Assembly (NCBI RefSeq): GCF_964204645.1
Contig: NC_134029.1
Coordinates: 6,776,001-6,840,000 of the forward strand
DNA from: Tubulanus polymorphus
Lineage: Eukaryota > Nemertea > Palaeonemertea > Tubulaniformes > Tubulanidae
Direction of reading: 5' to 3'
Length of the DNA: 64,000 nt
Of this stretch, positions 5,331 through 54,933 are shown one piece after another; positions within the stretch are counted from its first letter, which is position 1; each line of letters starts with the position of its first letter. The notes beneath the pieces are model-generated. The model was given only the letters and a program-made list of their open reading frames with translations. It searched no databases and was not told the DNA's origin. A program made the position numbers and the translations under genes.

Positions 5331-6353
5331 TCAAACTAATTTTGCTATTTTGCACCCTAGTTTCCTGCGTACTTCTTGTCTCAGTTTTATACTCGAAATA
5401 CAATATAATACAAAATTGACACACGAATTCATGCACGATAATGTTTGCCCAGTTTTCTCGGCAATTTTTAATTCCTTGATGGGTGGAATAAATAGCATCA
5501 ATAATTTTTTAATTCCGGCCGGAAATTCGAAAACTAAATACGACATAACGGCCGCAAGTGCTAGAAATGAAGCCTGATGTTGGATCATGGCTGGTGATGA
5601 TTGTTTGCTGGAAATCTTATCCCGTTTACGTGTGGCATCCACCAACGATTTAACTATTATCGTATTGGCAATGAACAAAATGATGAAAGGCGAAAAAGTG
5701 ATCATTGACATGTGTATTGCTGAGCGAAACTCGACTCCAGTGCCTGGAATACGTAGAAGACGCAAATATGAAACTTCACTCGGATAAGGGCATTTTGTGT
5801 AGCGGTATGCTACGTCACGGTAGAAAAATCGCCAAAATTGTGTCCCTATAGAAAGAAATATGATAACAACACAAGCTATTAAGCACTCGCGTTTGGAGAC
5901 ATAAGCACGTGCTTTTAACGGGAATACGATAGCAAATGCTCGTTCTAAACTAATCAGAACTGTGATCCAGTTCCTGACCATTTTAGCTATTACAGACGGC
6001 TCCATCGCGACATATGACAGAAAGACACCAACCTCACTGACATTTCTGAAAAACATTTCTCGCGGGGAGTATACCCATTCTACCAAGTATCGAATCGGAC
6101 GCGCGATAAGATAGCAAATAAGTAATACATTTTCCGCTACGGCAAGAACGCGTAATATAGTGAATGTCGGAACTTCAGTGTTGAATGATGATAAAACGTA
6201 CAACGTCAGGAAATTCAGAAAGATGCCAATTATTGTAATGGGTAAAATAGCAAATACATTGAACATCCAGGCAACATTCGTAATGTAATTCAACTGGCAG
6301 TCATTAGTGAAATTCGTCGCCATTCTGAAGTTAATGTTCGATCCTGAAAGCAA
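5331..6353 (-). CDS. Class A GPCR, FMRFamide-receptor-like, copy 1 (intronless)
   Basis: Intronless 340-residue seven-transmembrane receptor, expected at the plasma membrane and coupled to G proteins. Visible features are an N-terminal glycosylation site (NFT), seven hydrophobic segments, ERA in place of DRY after segment 3 followed by IVFPLKA, and NFVLY in place of NPxxY in segment 7. The basic C-terminal tail is short. The 'LERxxAIxxPLKA' run resembles invertebrate FMRFamide/peptide receptors, but the ligand is unknown. The usual cysteine at the top of segment 3 is not seen, although a cysteine is present in the second extracellular loop. The start may be the first ATG or the ATG 11 codons in, because the segment following that second ATG (TNFTND) is shared with the sister copy. 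I count 15 substitutions plus a changed C-terminus relative to the copy at 8728-9753. Confidence 0.85.
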   Translation of the reverse strand: MLSGSNINFRMATNFTNDCQLNYITNVAWMFNVFAILPITIIGIFLNFLTLYVLSSFNTEVPTFTILRVLAVAENVLLICYLIARPIRYLVEWVYSPREMFFRNVSEVGVFLSYVAMEPSVIAKMVRNWITVLISLERAFAIVFPLKARAYVSKRECLIACVVIIFLSIGTQFWRFFYRDVAYRYTKCPYPSEVSYLRLLRIPGTGVEFRSAIHMSMITFSPFIILFIANTIIVKSLVDATRKRDKISSKQSSPAMIQHQASFLALAAVMSYLVFEFPAGIKKLLMLFIPPIKELKIAEKTGQTLSCMNSCVNFVLYCISSIKLRQEVRRKLGCKIAKLV

Positions 6354-6779
6354 GCATTCTCCAAACAGTATGTATATAACGATAAAATACTGAAATTGTA
6401 GCGCTCATGCAACTTTGAGGGAAAGGTTAAGAGTAAATAGCTAAATCAATAAGCAAACCCACAGATGATGACTAAATAATTTATTCTAATCTTTCAGTTT
6501 CGAAGTTTTGACTAAAACTAAATCATCAAAAACCGTTCCTCTGCAAAATAAAACGTTTGAAATGAAATATATTGATCTTTGAATTACAGTGTTTGAGGTA
6601 TATCATCCACAATCGTTGTGGTATGTAATATTTTGCGCATTGGATTGTCGAAAAACAGAAAAACAGAAATTCAATGCCTTGAAGTATAGGAAATCAGAAT
6701 CCAGTCATCGAACAATTTCCAGCATCTTTGCTTCGTCTTCTTTATGTTGGAAGTTAACTACATGAACTTGAGGACTGCA

Positions 6780-7340: not shown

Positions 7341-8727
7341 AAATCATTGAATGAATTCAATAAATCATAAAACAAATATGACAATCCAATGTACAGATTT
7401 AGAATTAACATGAGAAACTGTCGCTTTATCTAAAAATTAGAAAAAGAAGGCGGGCTTGATAGGTATTGCTTCATAATAATCTATAATTTTAGTTACCGGT
7501 AGGGGTTTTGCTATTTCAGCCCCAATACGTTTTAGGAATACACTAATTAGTCACGTCCAGCAGACGGTTTTGGTTCTGAAGATACAATTAGTTCACGTAC
7601 TTCATTCAAATTGGTTGGATATAGAAAAAATACAATTGTACATCTTAGGCATATAATAATTGATAGTTCACTCCCAATTTACTAGAATATTTACAAAATG
7701 CCCTAATTCACTAATAGCTAATTTGTATTGACATGATACGCCATCTATATCAAAATTTCAGGGACGCGAAGACCTTGTGGGATTTTTCCAATATATCTTT
7801 CATGGAAGCCCAGAACTTAAAGAATTTATGAACTTAAACAATCTATTACTACAAAATTGACATTTTGTGCCTAATTATCATTAATTAAATTGTCATTGAT
7901 ATTGCGCGTAAGGTGCGTTTTCTATCTAACTGATTTATAGTTGACCTATCGGTCACCAAATTGCCACCTTGATAACATTTATATTGAGGGTTTTTTGCTT
8001 TTTTTCACAGAAAACCCCCATTGCTTTTCCCCGGATTATTATGATCATTATTATTATTTTCCTTCCCCTGGCCTTTCAAAGCAGATAAACCCCAAAAGTC
8101 ACTAAAAGATAACTACTACGGATTTCTACGAAATTTTCTAGGATTTTACTTAAGCCCAATACTTACAGATTTCAAGTGTCTATATTTTGATTGACCCCTC
8201 GGTTCGTGCCCCAGGGGTCGAAAGGTAACATGTCTCCGAATGTCAGATTCTGGATCGAGAGGCCGAAAACCGTTGTGTTCGACATATTTTTCGTTGCATT
8301 AGCAATTCCTCGACGTACTGGACGTCAACATTGTTATCGGTATCTAGACCGACAAAATAGTTAACGCATGTATTTGTAATGAACAGGGCATACTCAAACT
8401 TCAAAAATATCATAGTATTCAACAACGTATAGAATAAGATTTATTCTTTTTTTGAATTCTTTACTTCGATGAATTCATGGAACGATCGACGAACTTTCGA
8501 ATACCATGTATATATCCTAAATTTGTTTTGCAGGGGAAAAGAATTCGTATATTCTTTTGTTACATTTCGGCGATGAACTTTTAAAGTTCGTGAATCTCAA
8601 GTCATTATCCATCGTTATATTACCATGAAACATTGTTTGCAGGCACGATTATCTTTAGCATCATCGATTTAAGTATTATCTCTCCGGGGAGTACGAAAGC
8701 ACTACAATTTCAGTATTCTGTCGTTAT
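7341..8727. other. Spacer between the two inverted GPCR copies
   Basis: No coding region is supported; the one 60-residue minus frame (8243-8425) resembles nothing recognised. The last few dozen bases before 8728 share ACTACAATTTCAGTATT with the upstream flank of the sister gene, so the duplicated unit includes part of the promoter region. A short self-complementary block (GACCCCT ... AGGGGTC) lies at about 8193-8220. Confidence 0.5.
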
Positions 8728-9753
8728 ATGCCGTCCGCAGAGCTGCTTCATTTCGGGAACATTAACTTTAGAATGGAGACGAACTTCACTAATGACTGCC
8801 AGTTGAATTACATTACAAATATTTCCTGGATGTTCAACGTATTTGCTATTTTACCCATTACAATAATTGGAATCTTTCTGAACTTCCTGACGTTTTATGT
8901 TTTATCATCGTTCAACACGGAAGTTCCGACATTCACTATATTACGCGTTCTTGCCGTAGCGGAAAATGTATTACTTATTTGCTATCTTATCGCGCGTCCG
9001 ATTCGATACTTGGTGGAATGGGTATACTCCCCGCGAGAAATGTTTTTCAGAAATGTCAGTGAGGTCGGTGTCTTTCTGTCATATGTTGCGATGTCACCGT
9101 CTGTAATAGCTAAAATGGTCAGGAACTGGATCACAGTTCTGATTAGTTTAGAACGAGCATTTGCTATCGTATTCCCGTTGAAAGCACGTGCTTATGTCTC
9201 CAAACGCGAGTGCTTAATATCTTGTGTTGTTATCATATTTCTTTCCATAGGGACACAATTTTGGCGATTTTTCTACCGTGACGTAGCATACCGCTACACA
9301 AAATGCCCTTATCCGAGTGAAGTTTCATATTTGCGACTTCTACGTATTCCAGGCACTGGAGTTGAGTTTCGCTCAGCAATACACATGTCAATGATCACTT
9401 TTTCGCCTTTCATCATTTTGTCCATTGCCAATATGATAATAGTTAAATCGTTGGTGGATGCCACACGTAAACGGGATAAGATTTCCAGCAAACAATCATC
9501 ACCAGCCATGATCCAACATCAGGCTTCATTTCTAGCACTTGCGGCCGTTATGTCGTATTTAGTTTTCGAATTTCCGGCCGGAATTAAAAAATTATTGATG
9601 CAATTTATTCCGCCCACCAAGGAATTGAAAATTGTCGCTAAGACTGGGCAAACATTATCGAGCACGAATTCGTGTGTCAATTTTGTATTGTATTGTATTT
9701 CGAGTAAAAAACTGAGACAAGAAGTACGCAGGAAACTAGTAGGGTGCAAATAG
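8728..9753 (+). CDS. Class A GPCR, FMRFamide-receptor-like, copy 2 (intronless)
   Basis: Intronless 341-residue receptor, inverted relative to its near-identical sister at 5331-6353. It shows the same seven hydrophobic segments, ERA after segment 3, an HMSMITFSPF run in segment 5 and NFVLY in segment 7, and the same absence of a segment-3 cysteine. By my count 15 residues differ over about 325 shared positions. The tail differs because a 3-base insertion (a valine codon) is followed by an earlier stop. Nucleotide identity in the middle of the gene is almost complete at silent sites, while the ends and flanks are clearly more diverged. The upstream residues MPSAELLHF are not conserved, so the ATG of METNFTND may be the true start. 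Probably a functional paralogue with the same or a related peptide ligand; the ligand is unknown. Confidence 0.85.
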   Translation: MPSAELLHFGNINFRMETNFTNDCQLNYITNISWMFNVFAILPITIIGIFLNFLTFYVLSSFNTEVPTFTILRVLAVAENVLLICYLIARPIRYLVEWVYSPREMFFRNVSEVGVFLSYVAMSPSVIAKMVRNWITVLISLERAFAIVFPLKARAYVSKRECLISCVVIIFLSIGTQFWRFFYRDVAYRYTKCPYPSEVSYLRLLRIPGTGVEFRSAIHMSMITFSPFIILSIANMIIVKSLVDATRKRDKISSKQSSPAMIQHQASFLALAAVMSYLVFEFPAGIKKLLMQFIPPTKELKIVAKTGQTLSSTNSCVNFVLYCISSKKLRQEVRRKLVGCK

Positions 9754-11362: not shown

Positions 11363-11431
11363 GTCTGACATCAAACCAATGAAAAGAGTCGAGGGTTAAT
11401 TTGTCAGTGTGTATTCATTTTAGTTCCAATT

Positions 11432-12511
11432 ATGACAACCAGTATTGCAGTTTGGAAAGAAGTACCGAACAACTCGACGGTAACTGACGTAGCGGTAACT
11501 ACGACAGAACTACCTTGGTGGCCATGGGACAGATACATTACTATCATGGCAATCTGGACAGCTTGGTCTATGGCTTGTACTTTGTTTTTTGGAACGGTCG
11601 GAAATCTTTTCTCGGCGGCACTTCTCTTCAAATACCGCAGTAAACCTCAAGCATGTGCCGTCTATTTGATTCCGCTCGCGTTGAGTGATCTAATGTTCGT
11701 CTGCTCCGAGGTTGTTGCCCAAATGCTCAATCAAACGCGTATGCACTTCCACATACGATTGAAACATTTGAATGGTATTCGTTATTGGAATGATGCTTCG
11801 TGCGCATATTTCAAATACGTTCCCTACGTCACTGAGTTCATATCGCCGTGTATCATGTTAATCATAAGTCTCGAACGCTGCGTCGTTATCTGGCGACCAT
11901 TTATCAACGTCAGCACAACGTTTCGTCGGGCTTGTGTTGGTCTCGCCGTCATCATACCATCTTCTTACAACTTCTATCAAATCTTAATCATTTCGAGAGT
12001 TGAGTACACCGTGCTTGGCATTACCTTCGTGAGTTGCCGGAATATGAAAGGCCCTGGGCTTTCCAGGTTAGCGTACTTCGAGAAAATGATTGAATCAATT
12101 TACATCCGAAGATATTTCATGACCTCGTCGCTGGCATTAACCAACGTTATAACGATATTCGGTCTACTTCGTGCCACGTACGAGCAAAACCGGGCCAAAC
12201 TCTCCTCCTCCAGTCAAAATCAGCAACGGTCGAAGGTGATAAAAGCTAGTAAACATCTGATCGTTTTGTCTGTGTTATACGGAATTCTCTACCTGGCAGA
12301 ATCGACGCCGTACGCCCCAAGCTCGAGTTCATCTTTTGCCCACTTGGCCAGGCTGAGGTTTGCCGCCACATGGCTATACCATTGGTCGTTTGCGATGAAT
12401 TTCTTAGTCTACTTTTTCAATTTGGAGTTTTTCCGAGCGGAGGTAATATTCATCCTGAGTTGTGGATGGATCGACAAACGTAAAACTTCAGCGCAAAGGC
12501 AGCAGCGATAA
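11432..12511 (+). CDS. Class A GPCR, divergent peptide-receptor-like (intronless)
   Basis: Intronless 359-residue seven-transmembrane receptor. The N-terminus carries an NST glycosylation site. Segment 1 contains the expected GN pair (TVGNLFSAAL) and segment 2 an LALSDLMF motif matching the class A LxxxD signature. A cysteine sits at the top of segment 3 (DASCAYF) and its likely partner is in the second extracellular loop (FVSCRNM). ERC replaces DRY, and segment 7 ends with NFLVYFF in place of NPxxY. A serine-rich stretch sits between segments 6 and 7. It is clearly a different subfamily from the inverted pair at 5.3 and 8.7 kb, although all three resemble invertebrate peptide or FMRFamide receptors and are clustered. 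The ligand is unknown. The start is the first ATG of the frame, 77 bases after the TATA-like box begins. Confidence 0.85.
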   Translation: MTTSIAVWKEVPNNSTVTDVAVTTTELPWWPWDRYITIMAIWTAWSMACTLFFGTVGNLFSAALLFKYRSKPQACAVYLIPLALSDLMFVCSEVVAQMLNQTRMHFHIRLKHLNGIRYWNDASCAYFKYVPYVTEFISPCIMLIISLERCVVIWRPFINVSTTFRRACVGLAVIIPSSYNFYQILIISRVEYTVLGITFVSCRNMKGPGLSRLAYFEKMIESIYIRRYFMTSSLALTNVITIFGLLRATYEQNRAKLSSSSQNQQRSKVIKASKHLIVLSVLYGILYLAESTPYAPSSSSSFAHLARLRFAATWLYHWSFAMNFLVYFFNLEFFRAEVIFILSCGWIDKRKTSAQRQQR

Positions 12512-48554: not shown

Positions 48555-51500
48555 TTAGTCCATGGCTTCCAGATCATCATCGGAGTCGGAAATATCTTTT
48601 ACTTCTCGATATCTAAGAAAACACAAGTCAAGGAAATTTGACACAGTAATTAATGAGAACTTAACTGCTGAGAACGCAGACAAGACTTAGATTTAAGACC
48701 ACACTACTTAAGACCACTCTACTTATGATTTCATGGCTGATCTAAAATCACAACCAAGCAACCGGAAAAGGATACGTCAATTCAGCTGGATTCTTCCTAT
48801 CGGGATTAAATCTGACCATTCTACCAACTCCAGGTATAGGATTAGCTAACCTCTCAGCTGCATGCTTTACAGCAATTTCCTATCAATGAAAGACAGCAAC
48901 AAAGTAATTCCGACAGGAACAAAGCATTCACCATTCATTGATCGATACAGTTACTTACATCTAATTTAGCTTTTTGCGTTATCTGCAATTCAAGAGAATC
49001 GCTCAAAGGTAAATGTACAGCTCGCGTAGTTTGAATGTTTACTAAGGCACCGTCATATTTCTTTGGGCTGAAAAGATGAATGAAATGACTCATATGATTC
49101 CCCGATCTATCAACAGACGTATTGATCAGCCTGCGATAAACTAAATCAATATATTTTGTTGGCGTATCTATCCTTACGTAGATTTCCTTTGGAAATGATT
49201 CAGAAGAGCTTTCAAAACATCGAGGTCGTCAGTAACCCGCGGACGACCTCGAGAATTTGATCCCGGCAGCGCCAATATCCCGACAAATGCTTGTTTCCCG
49301 GTCCGATAGTAACGTTCCAAACTTTCGTAGTTCAAACCGGCATTAGCGATAGCCTCGGCTAGGCCCTCGGTGATCACGTTCTTACTTTCGAGCGAAAAAT
49401 CAAACAATTTTCCGCGCATCGAATTGACGCGTTTACGTTTCTCGAGCAGCCGATCTAAATACTCGGTCGCCGAGGAGCAATCGACGGTCGCGCACCCGCG
49501 AACGACTTCATCCGACGATAACTCCAACGACGAGTCGAATAGAATCCGACGCAGCGAGTCGCAACGCGACTTCGCGTCCCAAATATTCATTTTCCGATAG
49601 AACAAACACGAAAACGCACCCGACAAAGTTGAATCCGTCGTTTTTCCGGACGCTTTGAGACTCGTCAGCAACGGCGTCGAATACGCGAAATAAACATCGG
49701 ACGGCGGGTACAGACCACAAGTTTTGAAATTGTATAACAATGTATTTTGCGACGCGAGCGAACTCGTGCACAGAACCACGGCCGCATCGCCGTCGTTCTC
49801 CGATGAACAAATCGTCTGAATTTCGTCAACGAACCTTTTAAAATCTTTCACCGCCGTGTGCTTGTCTACGGTAACAACGCTTTCCGCGTGTTTCGTCAGC
49901 ACGCGTTGACCTCGTTCGTATTCGATTCGCAAACCGGTGAATTTAGCGATTTGCTTCGACAGGTACGGAGGAATGCAGTAGCGGTTGAACCCTCGCTGAT
50001 CGGGCCCGGTCGCTACTAATTGACAGAGTTCGGTATTGTTTGCACCGACTCCGTTTGATTGAACCTCGTACACTACGAAGCGCTTGTTGGATTTTTCACT
50101 GAGATCGACGCCTTGTGGCTCAAACGGCGCGACATTGAACGGTATATGTTGCTCTAGTTGCGCGATGGTTTCTTCACTCAACTGAGGAATTGAAATATCT
50201 GTAATGAGACAAACCACAATTTAATATCTGATCCTCAGATTCCTAAGTAAGGGCGATTAAATGTGGCCAGATTCAGGGAGGTGGATTTTTGGCATCTTAA
50301 ATGTTTCAATGAGTGCTTCACTTACATATCAAACTCCTACAAAGCAGGCATGAAGTTCAAAGATGCTACTCTATAGGGTTTGGATCTTTAACCTCACACA
50401 ATTAAGTTTGAAGAATACTCGGGAAAATTTCAATTGAATGTATTTTTGTTTTAAGAATATCTATCCTTGTTACAAACTCTCTAGTAGCCTTCCATCAGGT
50501 TTACGGATACTACGGAAACGAATATTGCAGAAGAGTATTCCAAAATTGGTAAAAACCAATAAAAAAACAGCCTTAAGACAGGAGGTTTGGAACTACTCTG
50601 GAATTAAACTAAATATCACAGTATTTAAGACATTTACCTTCGAGGTTTTCTTTCTTTGGTTGATACTCCTCTACATAAGATCCATCTGTGACACCTTTTT
50701 TAAATTCGGTTTTCATATCTGCCACCACAGTTTCAACGCGTAATGTTCTGAAACAAGAAATAATAAATAGCCAAACATTGAACACCTCAATTCTCAAAAT
50801 CTAGAAATCTTCCAGCACCGAGCTCAACTCAATAATGATATAAAACCCCAAAATATGAGACCTTCAGCTTAAGCTTAACTTAGGTCGTATAAGATTGGAC
50901 CTGATCATCGTAACGAATCAGGAACCGATGTTATGAAAACCACCAAAGTAAAAAATGTATAAAAAGCTGACCTATTTGGATGATACAAATCTTTCGGTGT
51001 CGACTTTTCTTCGAACGCCTCCATTTTATTAACGTGATCCAAGTTTTCGGCATTTTTCACTATACGAGTCGATCGCGTCGAAATCTTCTCGCCTAATTTG
51101 TGAATCTGGTCGTCATCGGAAAGGGTCATGCGATCGAATTGTAAACTAGCATCGTCGACTTCGATTTTCTTACGAATTAACGACCGCAATCGTGCGGCAA
51201 AATCCTCCACCTTTCGGCCTTTATCCTTCAGCGAATTCAAGAAGTTTCTGTAACAGAAAACGAAGTGGAGGGATAGATATTTAGCTAATTTAGCATTATT
51301 AAAATCATTGTATTAGGTATAGTGTTAGGAGGCGCTTTTACGAAACTGAATCTTTGTGAATCGATTTAAGTTTCACGTTTACGGCACGCGGTTTAATGAA
51401 TCCGATTTGGTAAATCAACGCTTTTGTGGAAACGGTTTAGTAAATTAATTTATTGAATCGACTAACTTGCTCGGCGAGCAAGTAAGTGGCGATTTAGTCA

Positions 51501-52964
51501 GCTAAATCCAACATGGCGTCCTCTTCGACCGCGGGCTAAAGACATCTATTGCAGACCATCATCTATCAATAATTCGGTCACCATTGACGCCCATTTTCTT
51601 TTGAATCGCGACCTTTAAATTGATAAATTGATTCGATTCATTTACGAAAAACAATTCGATTTACTAATCCTTTCGGTTTCCGACATCGAATTGGATTTAG
51701 CTAAACCGAATCAGATTCAATTTCGTAAAAGCGCCTAGGGTTTCCATTGGGTTAGGGTCAAAAGGTTAAGGTTTAGAGTAGGGCTAGGTTAAGTGCTATA
51801 TGTGGTTAAAACATTCTGTGAGATTCAACGAGCCTCGGTGGTCTAGTGGTAAGACGCTGAACTAGCCCCAGTTCCAATACTGTTCTATTTCACTCAGCAT
51901 TCTCCACAGGCTGGAATCTTTAAGGGACTGCATTCGGTCATTGTTATTGTGTATATGACATGCTGGTTGCTTAAGTAGCAAGGTTTTTGATTCCCCCCAA
52001 AATACAGAAAATTAAGCTAAATTTTGGTGTAATTTCACATTAGCTCAATACATTCTTAAGCAATTATTAGCATATTAACATTGACTCTGGAAGGGGTAGG
52101 AGGTATTTCAATCAAAAGGGGAATTTTATTTTCCGCTGTGGCTACTCGTACGGACCCGTACGGATTACTCTGGAGGCTATTCGTACGGAACTAGGATCTG
52201 TACGCTAATAACTGTCGCTGATTGGCCGATTAACGGCGCGCATGCGTAGAGGTGCACGACTTAGAAAATTCAAGGAAAGTGTGGAGAATAGAGTTAGAGA
52301 AAAATAGCGGATAGAGCGAGAATCGAACCCGGGCCAGTAAATTACTAGCGCAGCATCATAACACTAGACCACCGAGCTCGCTGACAGTCGGTCGAATGTT
52401 TTAACTACATATAGCCTCACCTTACCCTAACCCTAACCCTTCCCGTACACATAATTCCAGAGTTATCCGACGGGTGCGTACGAATAGCCTACGGAATTAT
52501 TCGTACGGGTCCGTAAAGTAGCCACTTCGTTTATTTTCAGAGGGGTACATAAGCCTATGAAAGGGGTAGCCGACCCTCTCAAAACTGTTGGGGAGAACAT
52601 TGCCACTCTTATTTTCTCCACAATTTCCTTGAAGTCATGCTCATTGCGTATGCAAATGAGTCATCAGCAAAATTATAACGTAACAAGAATATGCTGCCTG
52701 GCTGGGCAAGATATCAACTGCAATGCCAATAAATAGTGGTTTACATTTACGTCACAGCATTGCCATTGGTCTTCAGCTTTATGTGTATTTCCCAGTTCAA
52801 AAATGGCAATCTTTGGATTAAATTAAGATGAGTCAAGATGCCTAAAAACTTCACCTGTTATTCAATAGATTTTCTTGTCTTTTCAACAACTCTTCCAATT
52901 CAATTATCGATTTTTCTTCAAGGTTTCCCAAGTATCCCTGTCGCTTTTCTGGTGGTAAAGCCAT
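48555..52964 (-). CDS. POLR2M: POLR2M (Gdown1)-like protein with a large central exonuclease-like insert, 7 exons, 595 residues
   Basis: Gdown1 associates with RNA polymerase II, blocks TFIIF binding and makes transcription Mediator-dependent. Exons (high to low): 52855-52964, 50972-51247, 50638-50747, 49178-50198, 48959-49067, 48776-48879, 48555-48612. All are GT-AG, phases are continuous, total 596 codons. N-terminus EKSIIELEELLKRQENLL then NSLKDKGRKV matches the family's first helix; the end (HAAERLANPIPG, YREVKDISDSDDD) matches its C-terminus. Exon 4 alone adds about 340 residues absent from the vertebrate protein. It begins RFVVYEVQSNG (about residues 205-215) and continues ELCQLVATGP, FNRYCIPP, IAKFTGL, VVLCTSSLASQN and NIWDAKSRCDSLRRIL (about 370-385), the order of motifs in DEDDh 3'-5' exonucleases but with catalytic acids and His replaced. 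Exon 4 length is not a multiple of three, so skipping it would break the frame. POLR2M identity is likely; the exonuclease-like reading is tentative. Confidence 0.82.
51330..51736. mobile_element. 407-base MITE with AGGCGCTTTTACGAAA ends
   Basis: Terminal inverted repeats AGGCGCTTTTACGAAACTGA (left) and its near-perfect complement (right, ending at 51736), with further internal complementarity around the CGATTxxxxTTTACG blocks. It lies in POLR2M intron 1 immediately next to a SINE. No coding capacity. Confidence 0.8.
51740..51905 (+). mobile_element. tRNA-derived SINE, copy 2 (truncated)
   Basis: Leader GCTATATGTGGTTAAAACAT, box A TGGTCTAGTGG at 51839-51849 and a decayed box B (AGTTCCAAT). 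The 3' tail of the family is missing. A GGGTTAGGGTC tract sits near its start. Older and more diverged than the copies at 27616 and 52218. Confidence 0.7.
52138..52525. mobile_element. MITE with GTGGCTACTxxxxCGGACCCGTACG ends, split by a SINE
   Basis: Inverted arms at 52138-52200 and 52442-52525 share GTGGCTACT, CGGACCCGTACG and AGGCTATTCGTACG. The SINE at 52218-52441 lies between them, so the element was about 165 bases before the SINE inserted. It lies in POLR2M intron 1. Confidence 0.7.
52218..52441 (-). mobile_element. tRNA-derived SINE, copy 3, nested in a MITE
   Basis: Minus-strand copy: box A in degenerate form TGGTCTAGTGT and box B GTTCGATTC (complement at 52320-52328). It has the same leader and tail as 27616-27841, and the tRNA head is better preserved (GGCCCGGGTTCGATTC). 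At its 5' end is a run of TTAGGG units (seen as CCCTAACCCTAACCCT at about 52424-52439). Confidence 0.82.
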
Positions 52965-54400
52965 AATTCTGCAGTTTTATAATGACTATACCATGATACG
53001 CAACATAGTCATAGGTAGGTCAAAATATTAGCCTTTATTTAAAAAGAAAGTGTGGATTTTTTGCAATGGCCCTTTTTAGCACAACGACCTTGAGCGGTCT
53101 CGCATTGCATTCCGGTTAGAGGGACACGGGCTCGTCCATCCTCGCTTGCCATACCAGAGGGTCCGGTATCGCTCCCTGATGCTTAAGCTTAGTGGGTTCG
53201 AATCCCTTGATCAGTGACGTTGACGGAGAAGATGGGGCTCGTCGCGAAAGTACGGTCCACTACTTATCGGATGGAAAAATTGCTTATCAAACCCAAAACG
53301 TAGCGTTTTTCCACTCGATCAATATTTTAAAACTTACACAGGAAAGACCCAGTTGTCGATGAGTCGAGTCAATTAATTAAATTTGCCCCACAGAGATCAA
53401 TTCTGGAATACTAAAATGCATAAAATTTATTCCCGAAACCAATTACTTTGCTTTGCTTTATTTTGTGCTGAACATTATATTTGATAATCTCCCTATACCA
53501 GGATTCGACCTCGATTGAAATTCTACACCACCGACATTGTACACTTCGACATTCGCGGCAGCGCGGCAATCCCACTAAATTCGAGGTACACTAACACGCA
53601 GTATCAAAATGGCGTGCTTATACACACAACGACACGAAAAAAACATAACCTCACCTAATTACCAACATAGCCAGCCTTCCTTTTGACCCCTGAAATCAGT
53701 ATTTAAATATTCGGTAAGTGTTGGTTTGAATGGCGATAGATTAAATATTCCATCTCAGGTAACAAGAATAGAGGCATCGCAAATCGTACAATTACTTTCA
53801 ATACTAATACTATACTAGGCCTACTCTACGTACGGGCTACGGCGCACATGGTGGCAGTCAGTCGTCGAGTCAGCCAAGCATGACAAGTCGTACTAGAGTA
53901 GAAACCGAAGAAAAAGAAGCATAGGATGGGCCAGTGAGGAATTTAGAATAGGCCGGTGGCCAGAGAGCCGACATATCGTCATTCCACCCTGATATTTGTA
54001 GACCACTAGGGCTAGGCGCCAGGTTCCCAACTCGCTGGGTTGTAGTTTTTGAATCGATTATTCAAAATGTGAATTAGTTTTGGTTTGTGTTTGAATTCCT
54101 ACTATTCTTTATTCTGTATCATTTTGATACTTTCTGTTTTCGTTCGAGGATGTGTAAAACTATTTTATAAACAATTGACGTTGTCATCCCGACTGGGAGA
54201 ACTGATTACATCAAACAGTGAAAACAGTGTATGTTTTATTTCATCATTTAAGTTTGTTTTCTTCAGTTTCAGAATCAGATAATATGTAAACTGTTCATGT
54301 TTTTTCATTACTTTCTTGTTTATATTTCATGTTTGACTCTGGATGTAAAACCTAGACTGCCGTTAGAAAAACCCAGTGAATTAAGGATCTACAGATTGGA
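52965..54400. other. Upstream region of POLR2M
   Basis: No coding exon supported. It contains the tRNA-like repeat at 53085-53206. Around 53820-53900 base composition becomes more CG-rich and may be promoter. A consensus donor (CTCAG|GTAACA at about 53759) on the plus strand could belong to a divergent transcript. Confidence 0.4.
53085..53206 (+). repeat. tRNA-related (Leu/Ser-like) SINE head
   Basis: A perfect box B context GGGTTCGAATCCC is at 53194-53206, and a Leu/Ser-type TGAGCGGTCT near 53091 could be a box A relic. The spacing is too long for a working tRNA and no cloverleaf acceptor stem closes, so it is read as a SINE-like relic rather than a tRNA gene. Its family differs from the SINE at 27616. 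Confidence 0.45.
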
Positions 54401-54436
54401 GCGAAACAATTTAATTTGTAAGTTTGAATTTTCAAA

Positions 54437-54857
54437 GGACAACAAGGAATCAGTGTTTCACAATCAGACTTTTTTGGTTTCACACCGGACATCAGGAATC
54501 ACTCTTGGATTCAGCACAGGACAACTAGGCATCAGTGTTTCACAATCAGACTTTTTTGTTTTCGCACCGGACATCAGGAATCACACTTGGATTCAGCACA
54601 GGACAAAAAGGAATCAGTGGTTCACAATCAGACTTTTTTGGTTTCACACCGGACATCAGGAATCACTCTTGGATTCAGCACAGGACAACTAGGCATCAGT
54701 GTTTCACAATCAGACTTTTTTGTTTTCGCACCGGACATCAGGAATCACACTTGGATTCAGCACAGGACAAAAAGGAATCAGTGGTTCACAATCAGACTTT
54801 TTTGGTTTCGCACCGGACATCAGGAATAACTCTTGGATTCAGCACAGGACAAAAATA
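54437..54857. repeat. Minisatellite of ~82-base units in an alternating A/B order
   Basis: Five tandem units containing TTCACAATCAGACTTTTTT, spaced about 82 bases (54466, 54549, 54631, 54713, 54795). Units alternate between two versions (TTTGGTTTCACACCGG with ACTCTTGG, and TTTGTTTTCGCACCGG with ACACTTGG), giving a 164-base higher-order period. The open frames across it come from the repeat; 82 is not a multiple of three, so frames change at each unit. Confidence 0.95.
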
Positions 54858-54933
54858 ATCACTTGTGGAAATTCAAGATAAGTTACATTTACATTTATCT
54901 TTTTTTATTTAACGGTTGTTGAATTGATTTTAA

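Follow-up and report, generated by a model that had tools for sequence, protein, structure and literature searches.

The window examined here, a 64,000-nucleotide stretch of the Tubulanus polymorphus genome (contig NC_134029.1, positions 6,776,001 to 6,840,000), carries on its minus strand a seven-exon gene (48555-52964) that our splice model translates into 595 amino acids, and the fourth exon of this gene is the subject of the present analysis. All six introns have GT-AG borders. Sequence comparison identifies the gene as POLR2M, encoding the RNA polymerase II (Pol II) regulator Gdown1, in agreement with the original prediction. The Pfam model of the POLR2M family, GCOM2, matches residues 26-146 (3.4e-10; 40.9 bits versus a cut-off of 27). 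The human Gdown1 (GRINL1A) chain 28jc_M of the Protein Data Bank (PDB) matches both ends of the protein once exons 3 and 4 are omitted, the N-terminal stretch with an independent E-value (i-E) of 4e-8 and the C-terminal stretch, taken alone, weakly (i-E 0.25). When aligned directly, exons 1-2 score 129 against human residues 15-80 and exons 5-7 score 80 against residues 304-362, with none of 500 shuffles as good in either case. Shared with human Gdown1 are an N-terminal DKG motif, the sequence LKDKG aligning where the human N-terminal domain carries its LPDKG motif (PMC4007455), and an acidic C-terminal YREV tail. The C-terminal exons are further supported by U12-type signals in intron 6, whose combination of donor and branch site has a single occurrence in the window and none in 100 shuffles; the same donor scores poorly as a major-type site (-4.8). 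A search of the genome (267.8 Mb in 77 contigs) gave at least one match each for exon 4 and exon 2, both in this gene; it scores best candidates only, and these counts are lower bounds. By this measure, no second POLR2M/Gdown1 gene was detected in T. polymorphus.

The middle of the protein differs from its human relative. For exon 3, no resemblance to human Gdown1 could be detected (451 of 500 shuffles did equally well), and the same holds for the EXO-like and SAM-like parts of exon 4 described below (349 and 291 of 500 shuffles, respectively). The first 41 residues of exon 4 were considered as a human counterpart and rejected, their alignment being at chance level (149 of 500 shuffles). Conversely, human residues 197-303 have no match in this protein. 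With similarity at both ends and none for exons 3-4, these two exons thus occupy the place of human residues about 81-303, for which no counterpart was found. Exon 4 had been predicted as a single exon of 1,021 bases adding about 340 residues to POLR2M, and its position, size and coding capacity stand: it is bordered by an acceptor (...tctcattacag) and a donor (gtaagg), and it has no stop in its own frame and 12-16 stops in each of the five other frames. All protein motifs quoted in that prediction lie in the enclosing open frame of 348 codons (49174-50220). Thirty 64-kb sequences simulated from the dinucleotide content of the window contained open frames of up to 180 codons; when the coding-biased dinucleotides of exon 4 itself were used, simulated frames reached 447 codons, so frame length alone is no proof of coding.

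Two independent matches, both within exon 4, indicate what it encodes. PML_C was the sole Pfam family found in the exon at E-values up to 10 (1.7e-4, 22.2 bits, exon-4 residues 272-338). Searched as an isolated piece, this region gave an E-value of 8.3e-6 and 26.4 bits, just below the curated cut-off of 27.1, and the family appeared in none of nine reversed or shuffled controls. The PML_C model spans residues 777-852 of human PML-I, inside the crystallised PXL fragment of that protein (PMC12934764), and its match here stops 3 residues short of the exon end. Upstream, a profile built from three Plex9-type exonuclease chains matches exon-4 residues 41-126 with 15.3 bits, as compared with 7.4 for the best of 2000 shuffles, -1.6 for the reversed protein and 7.3 for the runner-up among 202 open frames of the window. 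Profiles to which TREX1 or PML-I had been added gave 11.3 and 15.9 bits, respectively, again with 0 of 2000 shuffles as high, and the Plex9 profile recovered Exuperantia (Exu) at 1.2e-6. Because the Plex9 and PML_C matches are independent and follow the order seen in PML-I, kinship of exon 4 with the PML-I/Plex9/Exu group is likely, and the exon resembles the PXL module of PML-I, with a predicted exonuclease-like (EXO-like) fold followed by a putative SAM-like bundle. The suggestion of a degenerate exonuclease-like exon of the PML or Exuperantia kind is thereby upheld for the first part; the SAM-like/PML_C stretch that follows had been missed. The Pfam scan of the 595-residue protein at E-values up to 10 returned, besides GCOM2 and PML_C, two matches that were weak and unrelated, with no RING, B-box or coiled-coil (TRIM) part. 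NCBIfam models gave one meaningless match to exon 4 (0.08) and PADLOC none.

The residues expected of an active DEDDh nuclease (D-E, D, H-D) are not retained in exon 4. Motif I reads VVYEVQ, with E45 and Q47, versus VFFDLE in Plex9, a change of D to E and of E to Q that had been recognized from the outset. No acidic residue lies between positions 139 and 167 of the exon-4 protein, and the motif II Asp is therefore absent unless the region is misplaced. Motif III, NIWDAKSRC from residue 205, aligns with NAHDALED in either of two registers; its His is lost in both, as predicted, and the Trp named as its replacement is found in one register only, the other giving Lys. A catalytic role for exon 4 is thus considered unlikely on the basis of these residues, in keeping with the non-catalytic character originally proposed.

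Comparison with characterized proteins places exon 4 among several relatives with distinct hosts. A PXL fragment from the C-terminal region of human PML-I (PML exon 9) has been crystallised, as described in a 2026 preprint, which reports that it binds (UG)n RNA and G-rich single-stranded DNA (ssDNA) without cutting them, that it retains one of four catalytic acids (D614) and that no nuclease activity was seen (PMC12934764). PXL has an EXO-like fold followed by a SAM-like PML_C bundle, the arrangement predicted for exon 4, and both active sites are degenerate, one motif I acid being kept in each (D614 in PML-I, E45 here). PXL is terminal in a TRIM/RBCC protein, whereas here the module lies within POLR2M, with a Pol II-binding half on either side; sequence likeness is remote, and pairwise alignment did not place the residues by which PXL contacts RNA. 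By sequence profile, the EXO part is most closely related to zebrafish Plex9.1 (PDB 9mrc, 9mrd), described as an active stand-alone exonuclease (PMC12934764), and chains 9l85 and 9l8b. These Plex9.1-type chains keep the D-E, D, H-D residues lost in exon 4 and, at 189-196 residues, have no room for a SAM-like part. Drosophila Exuperantia (PDB 5L7Z, 5L80) is reported to share the arrangement of pseudo-nuclease EXO and SAM-like domains, and a preference for (UG)n as well (PMC12934764), but resides in a different host protein.

Coordinates of the gene parts are given in Table 1. Elsewhere in the window, two near-identical single-frame genes in opposite orientation (5331-6404, minus strand; 8659-9753, plus strand) appear by eye to encode seven-helix receptor-like proteins, and a third, different gene close by (11369-12511, plus strand) has the same appearance. 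A tandem repeat with HRTSGITLGFSTGQ-like units and overlapping open frames (54252-54858, plus strand) is probably a minisatellite.

Table 1. Parts of the T. polymorphus POLR2M gene, in order of transcription (window coordinates)
Feature	Position	Strand	Description
POLR2M exon 1	52855..52964	-	Start codon; residues 1-37, Gdown1 N-terminal region; splice model
POLR2M exon 2	50972..51247	-	Remainder of N-terminal domain; LKDKG at place of LPDKG motif; leaves phase 2
Exon 3	50638..50747	-	Residues about 130-165; phases 2 and 1
Exon 4	49178..50198	-	1,021 nt; phases 1 and 2; residues 166-506; putative PXL-like pseudo-exonuclease module
EXO-like subdomain	49492..50088	-	Exon-4 protein residues about 38-236; predicted borders
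SAM-like/PML_C part	49186..49386	-	Exon-4 protein residues 272-338; Pfam PF25244
POLR2M exon 5	48959..49067	-	Gdown1 C-terminal region begins; phases 2 and 0
POLR2M exon 6	48776..48879	-	Splice model and human Gdown1 alignment
Intron 6, U12-type	48613..48775	-	Donor GTATCCTT; branch site TTCCTTGAC about 15 nt upstream of exon
POLR2M exon 7	48555..48612	-	YREVKD...SDSDDD tail and stop

Taken together, it is very probable that POLR2M of T. polymorphus is a fused gene with a PXL-like module, and three other accounts were weighed against this one. The splice anatomy bears on the first of them, in which exons 3 and 4 belong to alternative isoforms and no single fused protein is made. If only exon 4 is skipped, the reading frame changes and runs into stops. 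Exon 2 ends and exon 5 starts in phase 2, making exons 3 and 4 a phase 2-2 cassette of the sort that lends itself to exon shuffling and alternative splicing; their joint omission keeps the frame and leaves exons 1-2-5-6-7, an ordinary Gdown1 of 218 residues. The module is therefore not strictly obligate, and the assertion that exon 4 is required for the POLR2M C terminus was too strong, the flanking phases of 1 and 2 on which it was based being correct. (The in-frame 2-5 join may also mark an ancestral intron that received the exon 3-4 unit.) A second such isoform would consist of exons 1-2-3-4 with intron 4 retained, giving a Gdown1 N terminus with a C-terminal PXL, as in PML-I. Beyond exon 4 the frame continues as TCT ACG TAA, with a stop codon that overlaps the donor and lies no more than 4 nt from the end of the exon, so retention of intron 4 would end the protein after PXL, and PML_C itself reaches nearly to the exon border. 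Furthermore, the exon-4 donor, with C at position -1, ranks last among the five major-type donors (1.3 versus 2.2-4.2 on a simple score that uses base frequencies). Against this account, the minus strand has no AATAAA or ATTAAA from 50200 to 48515, beyond the POLR2M stop; intron 4 is only 110 nt long with 13 of 15 pyrimidines at its acceptor, and the exit phase of exon 4 fits the entry phase of exon 5 (chance 1 in 3). On balance, isoforms in place of a fused protein are unlikely.

Exon 4 might instead be an unrelated nested gene, an intronic pseudogene or a decayed insertion that is not translated with POLR2M. Its GC content (0.50 versus 0.35-0.43 in the other exons), the lack of a detectable human Gdown1 counterpart for exons 3-4 and the existence of zebrafish Plex9.1 as an exonuclease of its own (PMC12934764) are in line with such an origin. 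We consider it highly improbable, given a fully open frame, splice sites of matching phases, and the disruption of POLR2M when exon 4 alone is skipped. Moreover, the first Met of exon 4 lies at residue 204 or later, and its absence from the first 203 residues argues against an independent gene. A crude word comparison showed no target-site duplication at the flanks, and no parent copy was found in the genome: PML_C had no locus besides exon 4, the Exu RNase H-like family gave nothing at an E-value of 0.1, and a Plex9-type chain found nothing in a search run without a positive control. Pattern matches to exon 4 numbered 3 in viral and 42 in bacterial-archaeal contigs; none was confirmed, so that at this level of sensitivity nothing points to an origin in viruses or bacteria. 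The remaining account treats exon 4 as a Gdown1-specific domain whose exonuclease resemblance and weak profile matches arose by chance. Several results weigh on its side and against kinship with PXL. Exon 4 went undetected by a PML-I-only profile, by profiles of bacterial and viral DEDDh enzymes and by the Pfam RNase_T and Exu RNase H-like models, and direct comparison with PDB sequences gave nothing significant. Structure models added little, single-sequence AlphaFold2 of exon 4 being uninformative and the model of the EXO part being of low confidence and steered by DEDDh sequences; PML-I PXL did not figure among 50 rows listed in the structural comparison, which excludes nothing. Nevertheless, coincidence is a very doubtful source of two independent matches, Plex9 and PML_C, in one exon and in PML-I order, which none of the 2000 shuffles or nine controls reached.

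Our preferred explanation, which we regard as reasonably likely overall, is that the Gdown1 linker of T. polymorphus carries a PXL-like nucleic acid-binding module. In this model, the unit of exons 3 and 4, sitting between the N- and C-terminal Pol II-binding halves, would encode a DEDDh-type EXO fold that lacks its metal-binding residues and, after it, a SAM-like bundle. Human Gdown1 is reported to block TTF2 with its N-terminal domain and TFIIF with its C-terminal domain, tight Pol II binding needing both (PMC4007455), and the two halves of the present protein most likely still dock on Pol II and block these factors in the same way. By analogy to PML-I PXL and Exu, the linker module would bind ssDNA or G/U-rich RNA in single-stranded form and leave it uncut, and nascent RNA or exposed DNA could then keep Gdown1 on the polymerase, free it or set its position there. 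Such nucleic acid tethering on Pol II is possible, if somewhat doubtful. If expressed, the form that skips exons 3 and 4 would be a conventional Gdown1 of 218 residues without the module. Human Gdown1 is described as being kept cytoplasmic by export and anchoring signals (PMC9728996) and appears to be Pol II-associated mostly in mitosis (PMC13232147). A more speculative extension, to which we give limited credence, is that Gdown1 in some animal lineage gained a phase-symmetric two-exon PXL cassette and became an RNA/ssDNA-sensing Pol II subunit, with skipping of exons 3 and 4 as an on/off switch. The pseudo-exonuclease would then read the nascent transcript, or a structured G/U-rich nucleic acid, and decide whether Gdown1 stays on Pol II.

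The original prediction had also, with reservation, held this architecture to be new. No description of a POLR2M-exonuclease fusion was found among the papers listed by the literature searches, judged by titles and the starts of abstracts and mostly outside subscription journals, and the architecture appears undescribed, its parts being known. According to the 2026 preprint, PXL of PML-I alters transcription by means not yet known (PMC12934764). A PXL relative within a Pol II-bound regulator would tie this fold directly to the polymerase, and a natural fusion of this kind would allow testing of what such modules do for transcription. It would also show that the Gdown1 linker is able to host a folded sensor. 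Should the sensor proposal prove true, PXL would be a shared, portable module of transcription control and not a peculiarity of PML.
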